Source: Stenotrophomonas maltophilia (GTDB lineage: Bacteria; Pseudomonadota; Gammaproteobacteria; Xanthomonadales; Xanthomonadaceae). Taken from it: DNA of 64,000 nt. Shown here in pieces: positions 29,649 to 40,903 of the stretch; positions within the stretch are counted from its first letter, which is position 1, and every line of letters begins with the position of its first letter. A program made the position numbers and the translations under genes. Where the stretch lies: NCBI RefSeq assembly GCF_039555535.1, contig NZ_CP154630.1, forward strand, positions 4,698,501 to 4,762,500, in the 5' to 3' direction. Below the pieces are notes generated by a model, which made no database searches, was not told the DNA's origin, and saw nothing but the letters and a program-made list of their open reading frames with translations.

Positions 29649-29674
29649 GTAGAGCCGAGCCCACGCTCGGCTGC
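29649..29674. repeat. Single SMAG arm near the RAYT 3' end
   Basis: GTAGAGCCGAGCCCACGCTC then GGCTGC. An altered opposing fragment (GAGCCGAGCATGGGCAT) lies just upstream at about 29618, so this may be a damaged dimer. It flanks the transposase gene downstream. Confidence 0.7.
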
Positions 29675-29693: not shown

Positions 29694-30149
29694 CTAGTCC
29701 CGCAGAGGCCACCTGCTCCAGGCGTGGGGATATTCACCGAGACAGTTGGCCAGCCCTGCGCGTACTGGATTGGCCGCGATATACACCGCCTGCGTGCGCA
29801 GGCATTCATCCCTGCGCAACGCATGGTCGTAGTACCCCGGCTGCCAGATCGGTGCATTCGCATCAACACGCCTGGCGATGGATCGTCCACTCCTGGACTT
29901 CAGGATCTGCATGCAGCCGGCGAGCGTGCCGGTACGCAACTCGATCAACCAGTGCAGGTGATCCGGCATGATCACCCAGGCGAGGGAGAAGCTTCGACCC
30001 GTCCGCTCTACCGTGCGCAGGGCTTCGATCAGCAGATCAACGTTGGCCTTGTCACTGAACCAGGGACGGCGCGCACGCGTCACCGTGGTGATCGCATAGA
30101 CATTGCCGGTATGCGACCAACGACCATAACGGAGTGCGGGACTGGCCAT
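29694..30149 (-). CDS. REP-associated tyrosine transposase (RAYT, Y1/TnpA_REP family)
   Basis: 151 residues, the expected size for single-domain Y1 HUH transposases. The HUH-type motif is visible as VIMPDHLHWLIEL (His64, His66), and the probable catalytic Tyr is Tyr123 in AVYIAANPVRAGL. The YYDHALRRDE segment is typical of RAYTs. RAYTs are single-copy domesticated relatives of IS200/IS605 transposases linked to the origin and spread of REP sequences. SMAG elements lie on both sides (29649 and 30225), and a tandem array of SMAG dimers starts 1 kb away. Motifs look intact. Confidence 0.9.
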   Translation of the reverse strand: MASPALRYGRWSHTGNVYAITTVTRARRPWFSDKANVDLLIEALRTVERTGRSFSLAWVIMPDHLHWLIELRTGTLAGCMQILKSRSGRSIARRVDANAPIWQPGYYDHALRRDECLRTQAVYIAANPVRAGLANCLGEYPHAWSRWPLRD

Positions 30150-30224
30150 GCAGGAAGACTATGACGCAGCAGACGATCTCCACATCAGCGAAATGCTGCG
30201 CTGCATGTCGGCCATTGCCGCAAT

Positions 30225-30284
30225 GTAGAGCCGAGCCCACGCTCGGCTGCTTCGCACGCCAGCCGAGCATGGGCTCGGCTCTAC
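30225..30284. repeat. SMAG-type dimer upstream of the RAYT gene
   Basis: GTAGAGCCGAGCCCACGCTC and the inverted arm AGCCGAGCATGGGCTCGGCT ending CTAC, with a short spacer. It sits between the RAYT start and the mntP stop, and also forms the only hairpin after mntP. Confidence 0.88.
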
Positions 30285-30295
30285 AGGTCCGTGTG

Positions 30296-30871
30296 TTACG
30301 CCACACCGTGCAGGTGTTCGTACAGGATCGTCGCGCCAATGATCACCAGGATCACGCCGCCGATGATCTCGGCACGCTTGCCGACCATGCTGCCCAGTAC
30401 GCGGCCAAGCATGATGCCGACGGTGACCATGGTCAGCGTGCACAGGCCAATGACCGCGGCCATCACGCCGATATGCACGTCCATGAAGGCCAGGCCGATA
30501 CCCACCGCCATCGCATCGATGCTGGTGGCGAAACCGGTCAGTGCCAGCTTCCAGAAGCCGTGGTGCTGCGAGGGGTCTTCGTCTTCCTCGGCGCTGTCCG
30601 GACGCAGGCCGTTGTAGATCATGTGGATGCCCAGCGCGCCGAGCAGGCCGAAGGCGATCCAGTGGTCGAAGGCCTCGACGTACTGCAGGGCGGCACGGCC
30701 GAGCAACCAGCCGATGATCGGCGTGATCGCCTCGATGACGCCGAAGATGATGCCGGCGCGCAGCGCATCGCGGAACACCGGCTTGCGCATGGCAGCACCC
30801 TTGCCGATCGCCGCGGCGAAGGCATCGGTGGACATGGCAAAGCCGATCAGGAGGATCGAAATGGGGGACAT
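30296..30871 (-). CDS. mntP: Manganese efflux pump MntP
   Basis: 191 residues with six hydrophobic segments. It begins [20 protein letters not shown] and has the second, inverted-repeat-like [19 protein letters not shown]. The two Asp-containing TDAFA/IDAMA motifs are the family's metal-translocation signatures. It exports Mn2+ across the inner membrane. Two features specific to mntP lie upstream: a yybP-ykoY riboswitch in the leader and an MntR-like palindrome in the promoter zone. The ATG at 30871 is used. Longer in-frame starts would translate the riboswitch. Confidence 0.95.
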
Positions 30872-30914: not shown

Positions 30915-31065
30915 GCTCGCGCCCAACCTGACGTTGCGCGCGCGGGCCGCTGGTCTCGCCAACCATCATGGTTGTCCACGCCACGGCGCACTGGCCGAGT
31001 ATGTTGACGTGGACGATTCCTGCGAAGGAATCCGGCTACTCCCCAAGGGGACGCGCAGCTTAGCA
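30915..31065 (-). promoter_or_regulatory. yybP-ykoY manganese riboswitch in the mntP leader
   Basis: On the minus strand the leader contains CCCCTTGGGGAGTAGCCG, the family's L1 signature, then TCAACATACTCGGCCAGTGC (L3 side), GTGGCGTGGAC, and GGCGAGACC toward the 3' side. This is the order and spacing of the yybP-ykoY aptamer as in the E. coli mntP leader. Such aptamers bind Mn2+ and raise expression of the downstream gene. The downstream part up to 30872 is the likely expression platform. Boundaries are approximate to about 15 nt. Confidence 0.88.
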
Positions 31066-31119: not shown

Positions 31120-31135
31120 TATAGCGATGGCTATA
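31120..31135. promoter_or_regulatory. MntR-like operator upstream of mntP
   Basis: A perfect inverted repeat TATAGC-GATG-GCTATA. The core ATAGC-N4-GCTAT matches the arrangement of the E. coli MntR box. It lies about 55 nt upstream of the riboswitch and 250 nt upstream of the mntP start, in the expected promoter zone. No mntR gene is in the window. Confidence 0.65.
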
Positions 31136-31157
31136 TCAGCGCCGCGCTGCACGTGCG

Positions 31158-31861
31158 AGCCGAGCGTGGGCTCGGCTCTACAGAGGGGTCGCGCAACCGG
31201 GAACTTGTAGAGCCGAGCCGATGCTCGGCTGCTGTTCGGCCGAACCACGGAATACCACGCACCACGCGCGATCCGAGCGTGCGCTCGGCTCTACAGAGGG
31301 GTCGCGCAACCGGGAACTTGTAGAGCCGAGCCGATGCTCGGCTGCTGTTCGGCCGAACCACGGAATACAACGCACCACGCGCGAGCCGAGCGTGGGCTCG
31401 GCTCTACAGAGGGGTCGCGCAACCGGGAATTTGTGACGACGAGCCGATGCTCGGCTGCTGTTCGGTCGGACCACGGAATACCACGCACCACGCGCGAGCC
31501 GAGCGTGGGCTCGGCTCTACAGAGGGGTCGCGCAACCGGGAACTTGTAGAGCCGAGCCGATGCTCGGCTGCTGTTCGGCCGAACCACGGAATACCACGCA
31601 CCACGCGCGAGCCGAGCGTGGGCTCGGCTCTACAGAGGGGTCGCGGAACCGGGAACTTGTAGAGCCGAGCCGATGCTCGGCTGCTGTTCGGCCGGACCAC
31701 GGAATACCACGCACCACGCGCGAGCCGAGCGTGGGCTCGGCTCTACAGAGGGGTCGCGCAACCGGGAACTTGTAGAGCCGAGCCGATGCTCGGCTGCTGT
31801 TCGGCCGAACCACGGAATACCACGCACCACGCGCGATCCGAGCGTGCGCTCGGCTCTACAG
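31158..31861. repeat. Tandem array of 113-bp SMAG dimer units (six units plus a half)
   Basis: Units start with GTAG at 31207, 31320, 31433 (degenerate), 31546, 31659 and 31772, exactly 113 bp apart. A leading half unit begins at about 31158. Each unit is a 24-nt SMAG arm, a 40-nt spacer holding TTCGGCCGAA, an inverted 24-nt arm ending CTAC, and a 25-nt linker (AGAGGGGTCGCGCAACCGGG then AACTT). Copies are nearly identical, with a few substitutions. The array fills the space between the kinase stop codon (7 nt away) and the mntP promoter. Open frames inside it are repeat artefacts. Confidence 0.95.
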
Positions 31862-31868
31862 TTGCCCG

Positions 31869-34800
31869 TCAGGCGTCGCTGTTGCCAGCATCGCGCAGTG
31901 CGCCCAGGAAGGCGCGCAGCGAGGCCGGCTTGATCGGCTTGGTCAGCACGCGGTAGCCGCGTTCGCGCGCCATCCGCTTCAGCTCGTCGCGGCCATCGGC
32001 GGTCAGCAGTGCACCCGGCAGCGGATAGCCGGCCGCTTCACGCAGCGCCACCAGCGCATCCAGGCCATCCATGCGGTCATGCAAGTGGTAGTCCACCAGC
32101 ATCACCTGCGGGCGCTCGGCAATCTTCTCCAGCGCCTGGTCGACGGTGGCGGCGGTGATCACCTGCACCTGCCAGCGGCCCAGCAGCGCGCGCATGCCGT
32201 CGAGGATCTCCTCGTCATTGTCCACGCACAGCACGCGCAGGCCAGCCAGCGAATCGCTGCGCAGCGGCGTGGCCACGGCCTGCACCGGCGTGGCCAGTTC
32301 GGTGTAGCCCGGCAGCGGCGCCACACGCGGCAGGATGATCGAGAACATCGAGCCGCTGCCGACGCGGCTGCGGGCATTGAGGCGATGGTCCAGCAGTCGC
32401 GAGATACGCTGGCAGATCGACAGGCCCAGGCCCAGTCCCTGCTCGCCCCAGTCGAACGGCTGCTGGTAGCGGTGGAACTCATCGAAAATCTGCCGCATGT
32501 GGTGCTCGGGAATGCCGGGGCCGGTATCCCATACCTGCAGCTCCACTTCGTCGCCACGATGGCGCACCGCCAGCACGATGCGGCCCTGCCGGGTATAGCG
32601 CAATGCGTTGGCGAGGAAGTTCTGCAGCACGCGGCGCAGCAGGCGGCGATCGCTGCGTACCCAGGCCGGGCGCGCGAACAGGTCCAGGCGCAGGCCACGA
32701 CCTGCGGCCACCGGCGTGTACTGCGCCGCCAGCTCGCGCATCAACGCGCTCACGTCGAACTCCCCGATCACCGGGTGCAGGCCACCGGCATCCAGGCGCG
32801 ACACGTCCAGCAGGCCATCAAGAAGTTCTTCGGCAGCACGCAGCGACGCATCCACGCGCTCGGCCAGGTGCTTCTGCTCGTCGCTCACGTGGTCGCTGTC
32901 GCGCAGCGCGGAAGCGAACAGGCGCGCGGCGTTCAGCGGCTGCAGCACGTCATGGCTGATCGCCGCCAGGAAGCGCGTCTTCGATTGCTGCGCGACCTCG
33001 GCCTCGTGCGAGCGCTCGGCCACGCGCTGTTCCAGCGTCTCGTTGGCTTCCAGCAGTGCCTTTTCCGCGTGCTTGTAATCGGTGATGTCGTTGTAGCTGG
33101 TCACGTAGCCGCCGCCGGGCAGTGCCTGGCCGCGCATCTCGATCACCTTGCCGTCGCTGCGGGTGCGCTCGAACACGTGCGGTGAACCGGCGCGCATGTA
33201 GCCGATGCGGCGGTTGATCTGCACTTCGATATCGCCCTCGCCCAGCTCGCCACGCTCGGCGTTGTAACGGATCAGGTCGGCCACCGGGCGGCCCACGTAG
33301 AGCATGCCGTCGGGGTAGCCGAACATGTCCTGGTAACGGCGGTTCCATGCGGTCAGGCGCATGTCCGGATCGACCACGCTGACCCCGGCACTGATGTTCT
33401 CCAGCGTGGTCGACAGGATCTCGCGGTTGAAGCGCAGCTCCTGCCCGGCTTCGTCCAGCACCGCCACCACTTCGCCCAGGTCCATGCCCGAGCCACGCAG
33501 CAGGCTGGTCAGCAGCAGGCGCGCCGATGCCGCACCAATCGATGCGGCCAGCAGGCGCTCGGTGAACTGTACCCACGGTCGGTCCGCAGGCGCAGAGGAT
33601 TGCAGCTCGCGGCCCAGCGACTGCGCCTGCTCGAAGAACGAACGCCGTGCATGGCGTTCGCCGACCACGCGCGAGGCCAGCGCCAGCAGGTCGCCCACGT
33701 GCACGTGGCCGGGCCAGCCACCCGCCACCGACGGGCGTTCGGCATAAGGATCGAGGAACGGCGCGGCACGCAGGCGTTCGTCCACGCCGGGGCGCCAACG
33801 CGCGGACACCAGCATCATCGTTGCCGCATTCACCAGCAGCGACCAGAAGGTTCCATGGGTCAGCGGGTCCCAGCCGGTCATGCCGAACAGCTGCTGCGGG
33901 CGCAGCCACTCGATGCCGAACGGGCCGTGCTGCACCCAGCCCGCGTCAACCCAACCGGCCATGGTCATCGCCGGCAGCAGCAGGGTGTACAGCCAGGTGG
34001 CGAAGCCCAGCAGCATGCCCACCTCGACGCCACGGCGGCTGGCGCCGCGCCAGTACAGCCCGCCGATCAGGCCGGGCGCGAACTGCGCCACCGCCGCGAA
34101 CGCCATCAGGCCGTACGAGGCCAGCGTGCTGTCGTTGCTGCTGGTGCGGTAGTAGCTGTAGGCCATCAATGCCAGCAGCAGGATCGCCAGGCGGCGGATC
34201 CACAGCACGCGCGAGGCGACGTCGGCGGCCTCCTGGTGGTCACCGCTCCGGCGCAGCAGCACCGGCATCACCAGGTCGTTGCTGACCATGGTGGCCAGTG
34301 CGATGGACGAGACGATGACCATCCCGGTGGCTGCCGAGAAGCCGCCCACATAGGCGATCAGCGCCAGCGCATTGCGGCCCTCGGCCAGCGGCAGCGCCAG
34401 CACCATCGAGTCGTCGGCGACGCTGCCGCCGGTGCCGAACAGGGTCACGCCGGCGGTGGCGATCGGCAGCACCATGCCCGAGATCAGCACCAGGTAGCCA
34501 CCGAACATCCAGCGCGCGCGGCGCACGTCGCGCACGTCACCACACTCGACCACCGCCACGTGGAACTGGCGCGGCAGGCATATGATGGCCAGGAAACTGA
34601 GCAGCGTCTGCGAGATGAATCCCACCGGCGGCAGCCCGGTGAACAGTGTATGCACCGACTCCACCACCGCGTCGGTGCGGTTGCTCAGCCACAGGTAGGC
34701 GAACACGCCCACCGCCACCATCGCCAGCAGCTTGATCACCGATTCGAAGGCGATCGCCAGCATCATGCCGTGGTGGTGCTCGGTGGCATCGACCTGGCGG

Positions 34801-35327
34801 GTGCCGAACAGCGTGGCGAACAACGCCATCAGCAACGCCACGTACAGCGCCGGGTCGGTGAAGAAACCGGTGGGGCCGGTGTTGCCGGTCAGCACCTGCA
34901 GGCTCATCGCCACCGCTTTGTACTGCAGGGCGAGGTACGGAATGATGCCGATCAGCGCGATGATCGCCACCAGCGCCGCCAGCCGCCGCGAGCGTCCGAA
35001 GCGCGAGGAGATGAAATCGGCGATGGAGACCACGTTCTGGCTGCGCGCGATCAGCGCCAGGCGCTCGATGATGCGCCAGCCGAACAACAGCAGCAGCAAC
35101 GGACCGATGTAGATCGGCAGGTAGCCGATGCCGTTGCGCACGGCGGTACCCACGGCGCCGTAGAAGGTCCACGACGAACAGTAAACGGCCAGCGCCAGGC
35201 TGTAGACCACCGGCCGCAGCCACGGCCGGTCGGGATACATCGGCCGACGGTCACCCCACCACGCTACGCCGAACAGCAGCGCGGCATAGGCAACCGAGAC
35301 CAGCAGCAGGATCCAACTGGAGACCAC
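31869..35327 (-). CDS. Sodium/solute-symporter-fused hybrid histidine kinase, CrbS/MxtR type
   Basis: About 1152 residues, starting at GTG 35327 (VVSSWILLLVSVAYAALLFG). Domains in order: an SLC5-like symporter module with about 13 TM segments (to about 490, with FISSRFGRSRRLAALVAIIA); a linker; PAS (about 635-745, LTAWNRRYQDMFGYPDGM); HisKA with His about 792 in AAISHDVLQPLNAARL; HATPase (N box near 909, GLGLGLSICQR near 966); and a C-terminal receiver with Asp about 1079 in MLVDYHLHD. CrbS-type kinases respond to acetate or related carbon status and control acs through a LuxR-type regulator. The probable partner and target lie at 28937 and 26898. An ATG at 35399 would add 24 non-hydrophobic residues. 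Confidence 0.9.
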   Translation of the reverse strand: MVSSWILLLVSVAYAALLFGVAWWGDRRPMYPDRPWLRPVVYSLALAVYCSSWTFYGAVGTAVRNGIGYLPIYIGPLLLLLFGWRIIERLALIARSQNVVSIADFISSRFGRSRRLAALVAIIALIGIIPYLALQYKAVAMSLQVLTGNTGPTGFFTDPALYVALLMALFATLFGTRQVDATEHHHGMMLAIAFESVIKLLAMVAVGVFAYLWLSNRTDAVVESVHTLFTGLPPVGFISQTLLSFLAIICLPRQFHVAVVECGDVRDVRRARWMFGGYLVLISGMVLPIATAGVTLFGTGGSVADDSMVLALPLAEGRNALALIAYVGGFSAATGMVIVSSIALATMVSNDLVMPVLLRRSGDHQEAADVASRVLWIRRLAILLLALMAYSYYRTSSNDSTLASYGLMAFAAVAQFAPGLIGGLYWRGASRRGVEVGMLLGFATWLYTLLLPAMTMAGWVDAGWVQHGPFGIEWLRPQQLFGMTGWDPLTHGTFWSLLVNAATMMLVSARWRPGVDERLRAAPFLDPYAERPSVAGGWPGHVHVGDLLALASRVVGERHARRSFFEQAQSLGRELQSSAPADRPWVQFTERLLAASIGAASARLLLTSLLRGSGMDLGEVVAVLDEAGQELRFNREILSTTLENISAGVSVVDPDMRLTAWNRRYQDMFGYPDGMLYVGRPVADLIRYNAERGELGEGDIEVQINRRIGYMRAGSPHVFERTRSDGKVIEMRGQALPGGGYVTSYNDITDYKHAEKALLEANETLEQRVAERSHEAEVAQQSKTRFLAAISHDVLQPLNAARLFASALRDSDHVSDEQKHLAERVDASLRAAEELLDGLLDVSRLDAGGLHPVIGEFDVSALMRELAAQYTPVAAGRGLRLDLFARPAWVRSDRRLLRRVLQNFLANALRYTRQGRIVLAVRHRGDEVELQVWDTGPGIPEHHMRQIFDEFHRYQQPFDWGEQGLGLGLSICQRISRLLDHRLNARSRVGSGSMFSIILPRVAPLPGYTELATPVQAVATPLRSDSLAGLRVLCVDNDEEILDGMRALLGRWQVQVITAATVDQALEKIAERPQVMLVDYHLHDRMDGLDALVALREAAGYPLPGALLTADGRDELKRMARERGYRVLTKPIKPASLRAFLGALRDAGNSDA

Positions 35328-35399
35328 GCGTGTGTTTCCGTCGGAGGAACCCGCAGTGTAGGCCAGGCGTGGCCGGGGGTGCGGGCTCGTTGGGGGCAA

Positions 35400-39425: not shown

Positions 39426-40903
39426 GCTGGGCACTTCACGTCCTGGAGCTGGACGAATCCGCTGACGAGCGCGCGATCAAGCGCGCCTACGCAAAGCGCC
39501 TGCGGGTGACTCGCCCCGACCAGGATCCCGTCGCCTTCCAGCACCTGCATGAGGCCTATCAGGCAGCATTGGACTGGGTCCGCCAGGAAGCGCTGGCCGG
39601 TACCGATGCTGCGGACGAGGACGAGGACGAGGACGAGGACGAACCGGCGGAGCATGCAGCCGATATCGGCCCCTGGCCGCACGACGCCGACGTGGCATGG
39701 GCGCCACCCGAAACGCGTTCGTACTCGCCTCCGTTGCCACCCCGCGGCACGCCTGTGCTGCTGCGCACGGCACCGGTGGTGGAGCTGGACGGGGTGGTCG
39801 ATGTAGCAAGCCACGCCCAGTTGATCCTGCGCCAGGCATACCTGTTGCCGGTCGACGACTTCGGCCCCTGGCTGGAAGCCACGCCGGTGCTGTGGTCGCT
39901 GCGCTACAAGCCATTGGTGGGCGACGCGCTGCTGGATGAACTGGCACGCAGTCACAACGGCATCAGCGCAGCCAACATGGGTCTGCTGGCACGCTGCTTT
40001 GGCTGGGATGATGTACACGATGGCGTGGATCCGGACAGGCTGGCATCGATCCAGTCGCGCGGTCATCGACGCTGGGCCGCCGAGACCGGGAATGCGGCGG
40101 AGCTGTCGGCACTGCTTGAACAAGAGGGCAGCCTGCGGCTGGGGAAGATCACGGTCAGCCGTTGCCTGCGTTACCTGTCGCAGCCATGGCACCCGCGACG
40201 ATCCCTCTGGCAGGCGCAGCTGCCCGAGCACATCAATGAAGTCAACGCACTGCTGGATGCCATCGAGGCGGGCGGAAGGGAACAGGTGCCCGAGGCATGG
40301 GATCCGCAGCAGATCCTGTTCTGGCGAAGTCTTGCAGACATCTCCCGGCCCAACCGGTGGCGCTGGCAGCTGAACGCACTGCGTGGCGTACTGCTGGGCG
40401 TTTGCAGCCTGTTGTTCTTTGCTGGAATCGCAGGCGTCTCGCTGGTCCAGGGAAAGACGGGCGAAGCCGCGATTTTCGCCCAGCTGGGGGTGCCTTTTGG
40501 CCTGCTGCTGGCTGCGATCGGCGCACTGTGGGTGCCTGTGCGCTGGGCGCTGCGCCAGCTGACGCTGGATCTGCCCCCTTCACGCTGGGGATGGCTGCTG
40601 GCGCTGCCAGCGCCCTTGATGGCGATCGGCAGCCTGGTTCTTGTCCATGGCCTTGGCCACCGCATCGAAGGTACCCTGTTGATCTTCATGGCACTGCCCT
40701 TGGCGACTACGCGCCTGTGGCGACGCGTCGGTTCGCGGATACGGTTCGGAATCCGACATGCCGTGTTCATGGTGCTTGCCATGCTGATCGCCGAAGCAGG
40801 CATCGTTCTGATCCTGCTGCAGTGGGGAGCCGAGTTCATACATCGCACGCGCCGTCACGCGTCGATTGACGGGCTCCCGCCGGCCTCTGGAAACACCGTG
40901 TGA
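39422..40903 (+). CDS. J-domain-like membrane protein, HscC partner (1)
   Basis: 493 residues. The N-terminal J-like helices read ALHVLELDESADERAIKRAY, followed by KRLRVTRPDQDPVAFQHLHE. At the position of the canonical HPD tripeptide the sequence is Arg31-Pro32-Asp33. A very acidic stretch (DEDEDEDEDE) follows, then a soluble middle. Hydrophobic segments near residues 325-480 include GVLLGVCSLLFFAGIAGVSL. It overlaps hscC by ATGA. The composition matches DjlB/DjlC-type co-chaperones, which anchor HscC function at the inner membrane. Confidence 0.83.
   Translation: MSWALHVLELDESADERAIKRAYAKRLRVTRPDQDPVAFQHLHEAYQAALDWVRQEALAGTDAADEDEDEDEDEPAEHAADIGPWPHDADVAWAPPETRSYSPPLPPRGTPVLLRTAPVVELDGVVDVASHAQLILRQAYLLPVDDFGPWLEATPVLWSLRYKPLVGDALLDELARSHNGISAANMGLLARCFGWDDVHDGVDPDRLASIQSRGHRRWAAETGNAAELSALLEQEGSLRLGKITVSRCLRYLSQPWHPRRSLWQAQLPEHINEVNALLDAIEAGGREQVPEAWDPQQILFWRSLADISRPNRWRWQLNALRGVLLGVCSLLFFAGIAGVSLVQGKTGEAAIFAQLGVPFGLLLAAIGALWVPVRWALRQLTLDLPPSRWGWLLALPAPLMAIGSLVLVHGLGHRIEGTLLIFMALPLATTRLWRRVGSRIRFGIRHAVFMVLAMLIAEAGIVLILLQWGAEFIHRTRRHASIDGLPPASGNTV

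Follow-up and report, generated by a model that had tools for sequence, protein, structure and literature searches.

Tandem arrays of short palindromes were described in Stenotrophomonas maltophilia in 2008 (PMC2613905). In these SMAG arrays, as at the locus reported here, monomeric or dimeric GTAG palindromes are repeated together with flanking DNA at fixed loci, and the copy number differs between isolates. In SMAG region XII a 72-bp dimer and a further 31 bp make up a 103-bp unit. No change was seen at four SMAG loci followed in three strains through five days of subculture (PMC2613905), and copy number is therefore not fast-changing at those four loci. The present array differs from those covered in the available part of that paper in that its REPs are of class SM9 and not of the GTAGTGCCGGCC consensus, and in that it is located on an inversion breakpoint.

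Nearly identical REPINs lie in tandem, flanks included, also in Pseudomonas fluorescens SBW25, where a cluster of the matching type is found near each RAYT and in some cases beside the RAYT gene (PMC3116915), again as here. The largest tandem REPIN cluster reported for SBW25 comprises four REPINs and a REP, and other arrays there comprise 12 REPs, compared with six REPINs and a REP at the present locus, where, unlike in SBW25, the array is separated from the RAYT by an inverted chromosomal gene. PMC3733652 describes, more generally, REP dimers that are repeated in tandem along with flanking DNA. The BIMEs of Escherichia coli are likewise tandem REPIN-like doublets and bind gyrase, IHF and Pol I (per PMC3686654). 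The SM9 class was described in the latter paper with the same REP core, with RAYT-flanking REPs and with an abundance that tracks the RAYT, all of which is found here. Its SM9 counts, 0 to 116 in ten genomes, refer to one exact sequence and are not comparable with those from the looser pattern used below. The available text of PMC3686654 mentions neither the array nor the inversion (the word 'inversion' occurs 0 times).

Because tandem SMAG and REPIN arrays of varying copy number were published between 2008 and 2013, the array alone belongs to a known kind. The literature searched, covered mostly through titles and the beginnings of abstracts and with few subscription journals, contained no report on an inversion of mntP or on its tie to a REP array. 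What appears new relative to that literature is that a riboswitch-controlled metal exporter is inverted in association with a REP class and its RAYT, and that an array lies on the breakpoint. Among 43 genomes the locus provides natural replicates in which mntP occurs in either orientation, with RAYT, palindromes and array going with one of the two. It thereby opens to experiment the questions of whether host genes are rearranged by REPs and RAYTs, and of how a REP array between a kinase gene and a riboswitch-controlled metal exporter affects expression. Here we present the structure of this locus in a 64,000-nucleotide stretch of an S. maltophilia genome (the window; all positions refer to it unless a contig is given), together with a comparison of the genus.

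Structure of the array and its surroundings

Tandem Repeats Finder reports a repeat at 31150-31861 with a period of 113, 6.3 copies, 95% matches and a score of 1324. Read on the minus strand, from the kinase gene towards mntP, it resolves unit by unit into six full 113-bp units (31182-31859) and a lone 24-bp REP (31158-31181), so that the six units and partial unit of the sequence-only reading are real. Each unit is composed of a REP (24), a 40-nt spacer, an inverted REP (24) and a 25-nt linker, as had also been proposed. The 88-bp REP-40-REP part, with its REPs inverted, their GTAG ends outward and a single hairpin possible, qualifies as a REPIN; with flanking DNA included in the unit and copy number varying among species-level genomes, the whole qualifies as a tandem REPIN/SMAG array. 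The units differ pairwise at up to nine positions. The outermost units 1 and 6 are identical, and their variant REP is absent from the inner four. The internal spacers, earlier taken to be identical, carry one or two substitutions in three of the six units; the palindrome TTCGGCCGAA noted within the spacer does exist, but is intact in only four of the six. The regular spacing suggested a CRISPR, which was rejected as the spacers are near-identical copies of one another.

The coordinates (Table 1) place the array between the kinase stop codon and the promoter region of mntP, in agreement with the sequence-only reading. By its position, the palindromic box TATAGCCATCGCTATA is likely the MntR box reported in S. 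maltophilia Sm18, where an MntR box lies 247 bp upstream of mntP together with a predicted riboswitch, and where deletion of mntP leads to manganese sensitivity (PMC13217887). The RAYT gene, about 1 kb from the array, scores 148 bits with NF047646 (cut-off 80) and has REPs on both sides (29649, 30225). Three other RAYT-like matches occur in the genome; two of them (52% and 43% identical) adjoin other REP classes, and the third is weak and partial. The perfectly matching 25-bp arms of an inverted repeat, 30224-30248 and 31158-31182, enclose a 909-nt segment carrying mntP. A 27-nt, 89% inverted repeat of another REP class surrounds mntP in the uninverted locus L145.

None of the 24 primers for the 12 typing loci in the available part of PMC2613905 matches in the window, the best having 5 mismatches. 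A perfect five-copy tandem repeat of the 6-bp motif GGACGA is present at 39613-39642.

Table 1. Features of the array locus in the window, and two further tandem REP arrays of the same genome (contig C1)
Feature	Position	Strand	Remarks
Hybrid histidine kinase gene	31869..35399	-	PAS, HisKA, HATPase_c and receiver domains; provisional start; upstream of array
Array unit 1	31747..31859	-	REP end 9 nt from kinase stop codon (31869-31871)
Array unit 2	31634..31746	-	two substitutions vs consensus
Array unit 3	31521..31633	-	equals consensus
Array unit 4	31408..31520	-	seven substitutions; second REP decayed
Array unit 5	31295..31407	-	one substitution
Array unit 6	31182..31294	-	nearest mntP; identical to unit 1
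Lone SM9 REP	31158..31181	-	mntP end of array; 22 nt from putative MntR box
Conserved palindromic box TATAGCCATCGCTATA	31120..31135	-	about 250 bp upstream of mntP start
Manganese (yybP-ykoY) riboswitch	30961..31050	-	RF00080; 46.8 bits, gathering score 45
mntP, manganese efflux pump	30296..30871	-	PF02659; within inverted segment
SM9 REPIN	30225..30284	.	two inverted REPs 12 nt apart; other inversion breakpoint
RAYT, REP-associated tyrosine transposase	29694..30149	-	PF01797; downstream of mntP, same strand
SM9 REP	29649..29672	+	far side of RAYT gene; sequence match
Tandem REP array, 108-bp unit (L157)	around C1:2904035-2904591		within run of six REP pairs
Tandem REP array, 87-bp unit (L158)	C1:2932995-2933676		7.8 copies

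REP class and distribution in the genome

The array palindromes are GTAG-type REPs, in intergenic position as checked at the array locus, and belong to class SM9, GTAGAGCCGAGC..GCTCGGCT. The REPs of the E. coli BIMEs have sequences other than SM9. Apart from loop variants the array REPs match the SM9 sequence TGTAGAGCCGAGCCCATGCTCGGCT listed in Table 2 of PMC3686654, and as in that class a RAYT adjoins; the assignment is based on the REP sequence and on the presence of the adjacent RAYT. The name SMAG, used in the earlier reading, does not apply in its strict sense, because the consensus GTAGTGCCGGCCGCTGGCCGGCA given for SMAG in the available part of PMC2613905 corresponds to SM8 of PMC3686654 and is not that of the array REPs.

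The genome (G000) is a single contig of 4,830,894 bases, and genome-wide counts were obtained by pattern and BLAST searches. The REP pattern GTAGAGCCGAGCNNNNGCTCGGCT has 355 exact copies genome-wide, as against 0 for a reversed-pattern control, which excludes chance. The 113-bp unit itself is not dispersed, a point on which the earlier reading would have fallen: near-full-length matches, 6 of 139, were found at the array locus only, and the next best match is 83% identical over query positions 1-82 (40 of 337 candidates scored). At least two other tandem REP arrays are present in the same genome (Table 1). With these, and with the descriptions in PMC2613905, PMC3116915 and PMC3733652, tandem dimer arrays are not out of the ordinary, contrary to what had been assumed.

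Orientation of mntP in the genus

Eighty loci were selected by MntP similarity (the best 80 of 422). The kinase 3' end was used to probe 91 Stenotrophomonas genomes, of which 84 matched; 42 loci of the S. maltophilia complex, defined as a kinase probe at least 85% identical, were taken, and the 22 of these that duplicated loci of the MntP-similarity set were dropped. One genome per species was compared, and the contrast in orientation is thus a contrast between species. Strands were tallied where the kinase probe and a second probe lay on one contig, with 16 of the 91 genomes unscored.

Of 75 Stenotrophomonas genomes, 21, the window genome among them, have mntP and its riboswitch in inverted orientation relative to the neighbouring genes, and 54 do not. 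The complex divides into 21 inverted and 22 uninverted genomes (43 in total), and all 32 scored genomes outside it are uninverted. Among the best 80 of 422 MntP loci, mntP faces the kinase gene in 55, is inverted in 15, and is unassigned in 10, in whose stretch no kinase gene was found; the window and the 15 inverted loci all belong to the complex. The uninverted order, where all four genes are visible, is acs> RR> mntP> <kinase. The inverted order, in the window and the 15 loci and with exceptions, is kinase> REPs mntP> REPs RAYT> <RR <acs. The array sits on one of the two inversion breakpoints.

The class of the neighbouring REPs goes with the arrangement. At inverted loci the REP that first follows the stop codon is SM9 in 20 of 21 cases for the kinase gene, in another 20 of 21 for mntP and in all 20 of 20 for RR. 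At uninverted loci, where such a REP was found, it is of a class other than SM9, mainly GTAGTGCCGGCC, with one doubtful case, L053 (= L142), in which SM9 is matched beside mntP at up to four mismatches but the sequence is that of the GTAGCGCCGGGC class.

Two loci deserve separate mention. At about 4088-5324 of L033, the REP between mntP and the RAYT gene is interrupted by roughly 1.2 kb of additional DNA that may be an insertion element. L063, titled Bacillus subtilis SK7B5, is a Stenotrophomonas locus that groups with Stenotrophomonas, and the entry is likely mislabelled or mixed.

RAYT gene and number of SM9 REPs

A RAYT gene flanked by SM9 REPs is present at the other breakpoint in 19 of the 21 inverted loci, and at the mntP locus in 0 of the 22 uninverted genomes of the complex (Fisher P 2.6e-10, a statistic that ignores relatedness); G042 and G043 are the two inverted genomes that lack it. 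Close RAYT genes, at least 77% identical, occur in 19 of the 91 genomes, each time at the mntP locus and each time in an inverted genome. RAYT-like genes at most 66% identical are found elsewhere in many genomes of both orientations.

The 19 genomes with the RAYT contain 64 to 355 SM9 REPs (median 204), the 22 uninverted genomes 1 to 174 (median 28), and the two inverted genomes lacking the RAYT 19 and 39; the comparison of the 19 with the 24 others gives a Mann-Whitney P of 7e-8, again ignoring relatedness. That REP number depends on the cognate RAYT has already been published (PMC3686654). The low end of the first group is G084, inverted and with RAYT, at only 64. The high end of the uninverted group is G068 (locus L150), without a close RAYT, at 174, the next highest uninverted genome having 81; perhaps G068 recently lost its RAYT, or its REPs are mobilised by the 66% identical one. 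In S. maltophilia D457 (L034 / L121; genome G048) an in-frame stop interrupts the RAYT gene next to mntP, and the genome contains 210 SM9 REPs despite it.

Variation of the array between genomes

The number of units at this place is 0, 1, 2 or 6 among related genomes. This is in line with the variable-number locus suggested from the sequence, here at the level of one genome per species. At least one unit is present in nine of the 21 inverted genomes: six in the window, two in L045, two plus a remnant in L044, and one each in L031, L038, L048, L054, L112 and L136. Eleven of the 21 have a lone REP only, and in one, L036, neither a unit nor a lone REP was recognised at the array site. Of the 12 inverted loci that lack a unit, 11 thus retain a single REP, which in 8 of the 11 stands at the distance from the box seen in the window, 22 nt.

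Unit length across genomes is 108-114 bp, unit borders coincide with REPs, and nine units could be aligned over their whole length. Identity averages 96.0% within genomes (17 pairs, range 88.5-100%) and 80.2% between genomes (103 pairs, range 67.3-92.2%). As units are more alike within than between genomes, these alignments suggest that one REPIN unit is old at this site and was likely amplified separately in individual genomes.

Origin of the inversion and of the array

A flank tree was calculated from kinase, RR and acs stretches of 44 genomes (20 inverted, 22 uninverted, two outgroups), L036 being left out of the trees because it gave no RR match. On this tree orientation needs at least 10 changes, compared with a shuffled mean of 14.7; 10 of 1000 shuffles were as low. 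Orientation is therefore clustered, and flips are not free of ancestry. On a tree of the mntP segment, with mostly low bootstraps, 13 changes are needed, against a mean of 14.8 for shuffled labels, and 217 of 1000 shuffles needed 13 or fewer; the expected coupling of mntP sequence to orientation was not found on it.

Many nodes of the trees are weak. Two inverted genomes provide strong contrasts. L050 and uninverted L145 are sisters, with bootstraps of 100% (flank genes) and 96% (mntP segment); among the compared genomes L145 is its closest relative, or tied to one decimal, in 10 of 10 non-RAYT parts, and the kinase tail of L050, LRDAR-TAA, is the one found in L145. The RAYT of L050 is from a different lineage and groups with that of L136 (99% bootstrap). 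L146 groups with uninverted L151 and L150 on the flanks (98% and 96%) and with uninverted L150 on mntP (98%), and in 10 of 10 non-RAYT parts the genome nearest to it is that of an uninverted relative, in one part with a tie. On the simplest reading of these trees the inverted form likely had two or more origins, at least one of them without import of mntP or flanks; a transfer followed by conversion of mntP is a possible alternative.

From these observations we consider it probable that the array, six tandem SM9 REPIN units on the breakpoint of an mntP inversion, grew and shrinks by unequal recombination or slippage between direct REPs. Recombination between the palindromes would then likely be responsible both for multiplying the unit and for flipping mntP. 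The RAYT would spread SM9 REPs, as published for REP classes generally. Homologous recombination between inverted REPs on either side of mntP would flip the 0.9-kb segment of box, riboswitch and gene. In the resulting order, in which the kinase gene reads towards mntP, a single REPIN would be duplicated, the two direct REPs flanking it giving the homology for unequal exchange or slippage. On this view the array is predicted to be a by-product of the REP/RAYT system and, locally, a hot spot of recombination. Participation of the RAYT in the flipping is possible. A more elaborate form, in which RAYT and REPs together constitute a slow flip system, seems distinctly improbable: the arriving RAYT would seed SM9 REPs around mntP and nick them, the riboswitch-mntP segment would turn, the RAYT would land downstream of the manganese-responsive promoter, perhaps under read-through, and the array would be an amplified target at one breakpoint. 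Against the reading that we prefer, uninverted loci with a RAYT number 0 of 22, so that neither an intermediate nor a re-flip is seen, and the REP numbers of G068 and G084 run counter to a strict tie with the RAYT.

The most serious competitor, to which we give somewhat less than an even chance, is an inverted form that arose once, together with the RAYT and the SM9 REPs, and then spread by allelic exchange; there would have been no repeated flipping through REPs, and the array would be a passive passenger. It is favoured by the uniformity of the inverted loci: all inverted genomes except L050, 20 of 21, share a kinase tail ending in DA or EA, the first REP lies 7-9 nt past the kinase stop in 18 of 21, and the last REP lies 21-22 nt before the box in 17 of 21. 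The kinase gene ends in LRDAQ or LRDAR in 17 of the 22 uninverted genomes, and this difference in tail between the arrangements points, within the main clade, to allelic exchange rather than to repeated flips in place. RAYT relationships also depart from those of the flank genes. L050, however, which agrees with its uninverted sister in kinase tail, mntP and flanks, does not look like the recipient of an imported block, and neither does L146 with its affinity to an uninverted relative in all ten parts. Construction of the array by the RAYT itself, through repeated insertion of REPINs at one spot, appears very unlikely; the RAYT is flanked by the same REP class 1 kb away, and ordered REPIN clusters beside RAYTs are known in P. 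fluorescens SBW25 (PMC3116915), but linkers and spacers repeat together here at an exact 113-bp period, unlike what separate insertions would leave. Tandem repeats are often miscounted in assemblies, yet six copies as an assembly artefact are scarcely credible for a genome present as one contig, given the differences among the units and the presence of two units at the same site in other assemblies (L044, L045).

Selection for a function in transcription is an unlikely reason for the presence of the array. Stacked hairpins would halt or delay RNA polymerase arriving from the kinase gene, insulating mntP so that it answers only to its own box and riboswitch, an extension of the block to read-through suggested in the sequence-only reading. 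In the inverted order kinase and mntP are indeed co-directional with the array between them, and most genomes of the complex (20 of 21 inverted, 20 of 22 uninverted) have a REP no more than 60 nt from the kinase stop. For the RNA of one REPIN alone the folding energy is a favourable -52.2 kcal/mol (z -5.3), and for two of the units it is -51.6 and -56.5 kcal/mol (z -1.9 and -3.6). REPs are, however, palindromic by definition, 12 of the 21 inverted genomes do without any full unit, and covariation over nine units, in which the long hairpin was set against single-REP hairpins, shows too few changes to lend support to a selected long hairpin. A consensus scan for intrinsic terminators at 29.6-32 kb returned one weak site, the only one in the region and at chance level (shuffled mean 1.0). 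Sigma-70 promoters sought by consensus in the region were at chance level or absent. Effects on transcripts, such as protection of the kinase 3' end or weakened read-through into mntP, would be secondary to the origin by recombination that we prefer. A role of REPs at the 3' ends of messages is plausible.

In 15 of the 22 uninverted genomes of the complex the kinase gene ends on a REP, its stop codon being the TAG or TAA within the GTAG end of that REP. Kinases with such a stop have a shorter tail than those of the inverted genomes (L032, L037, L039, L041, L043, L113 and others).
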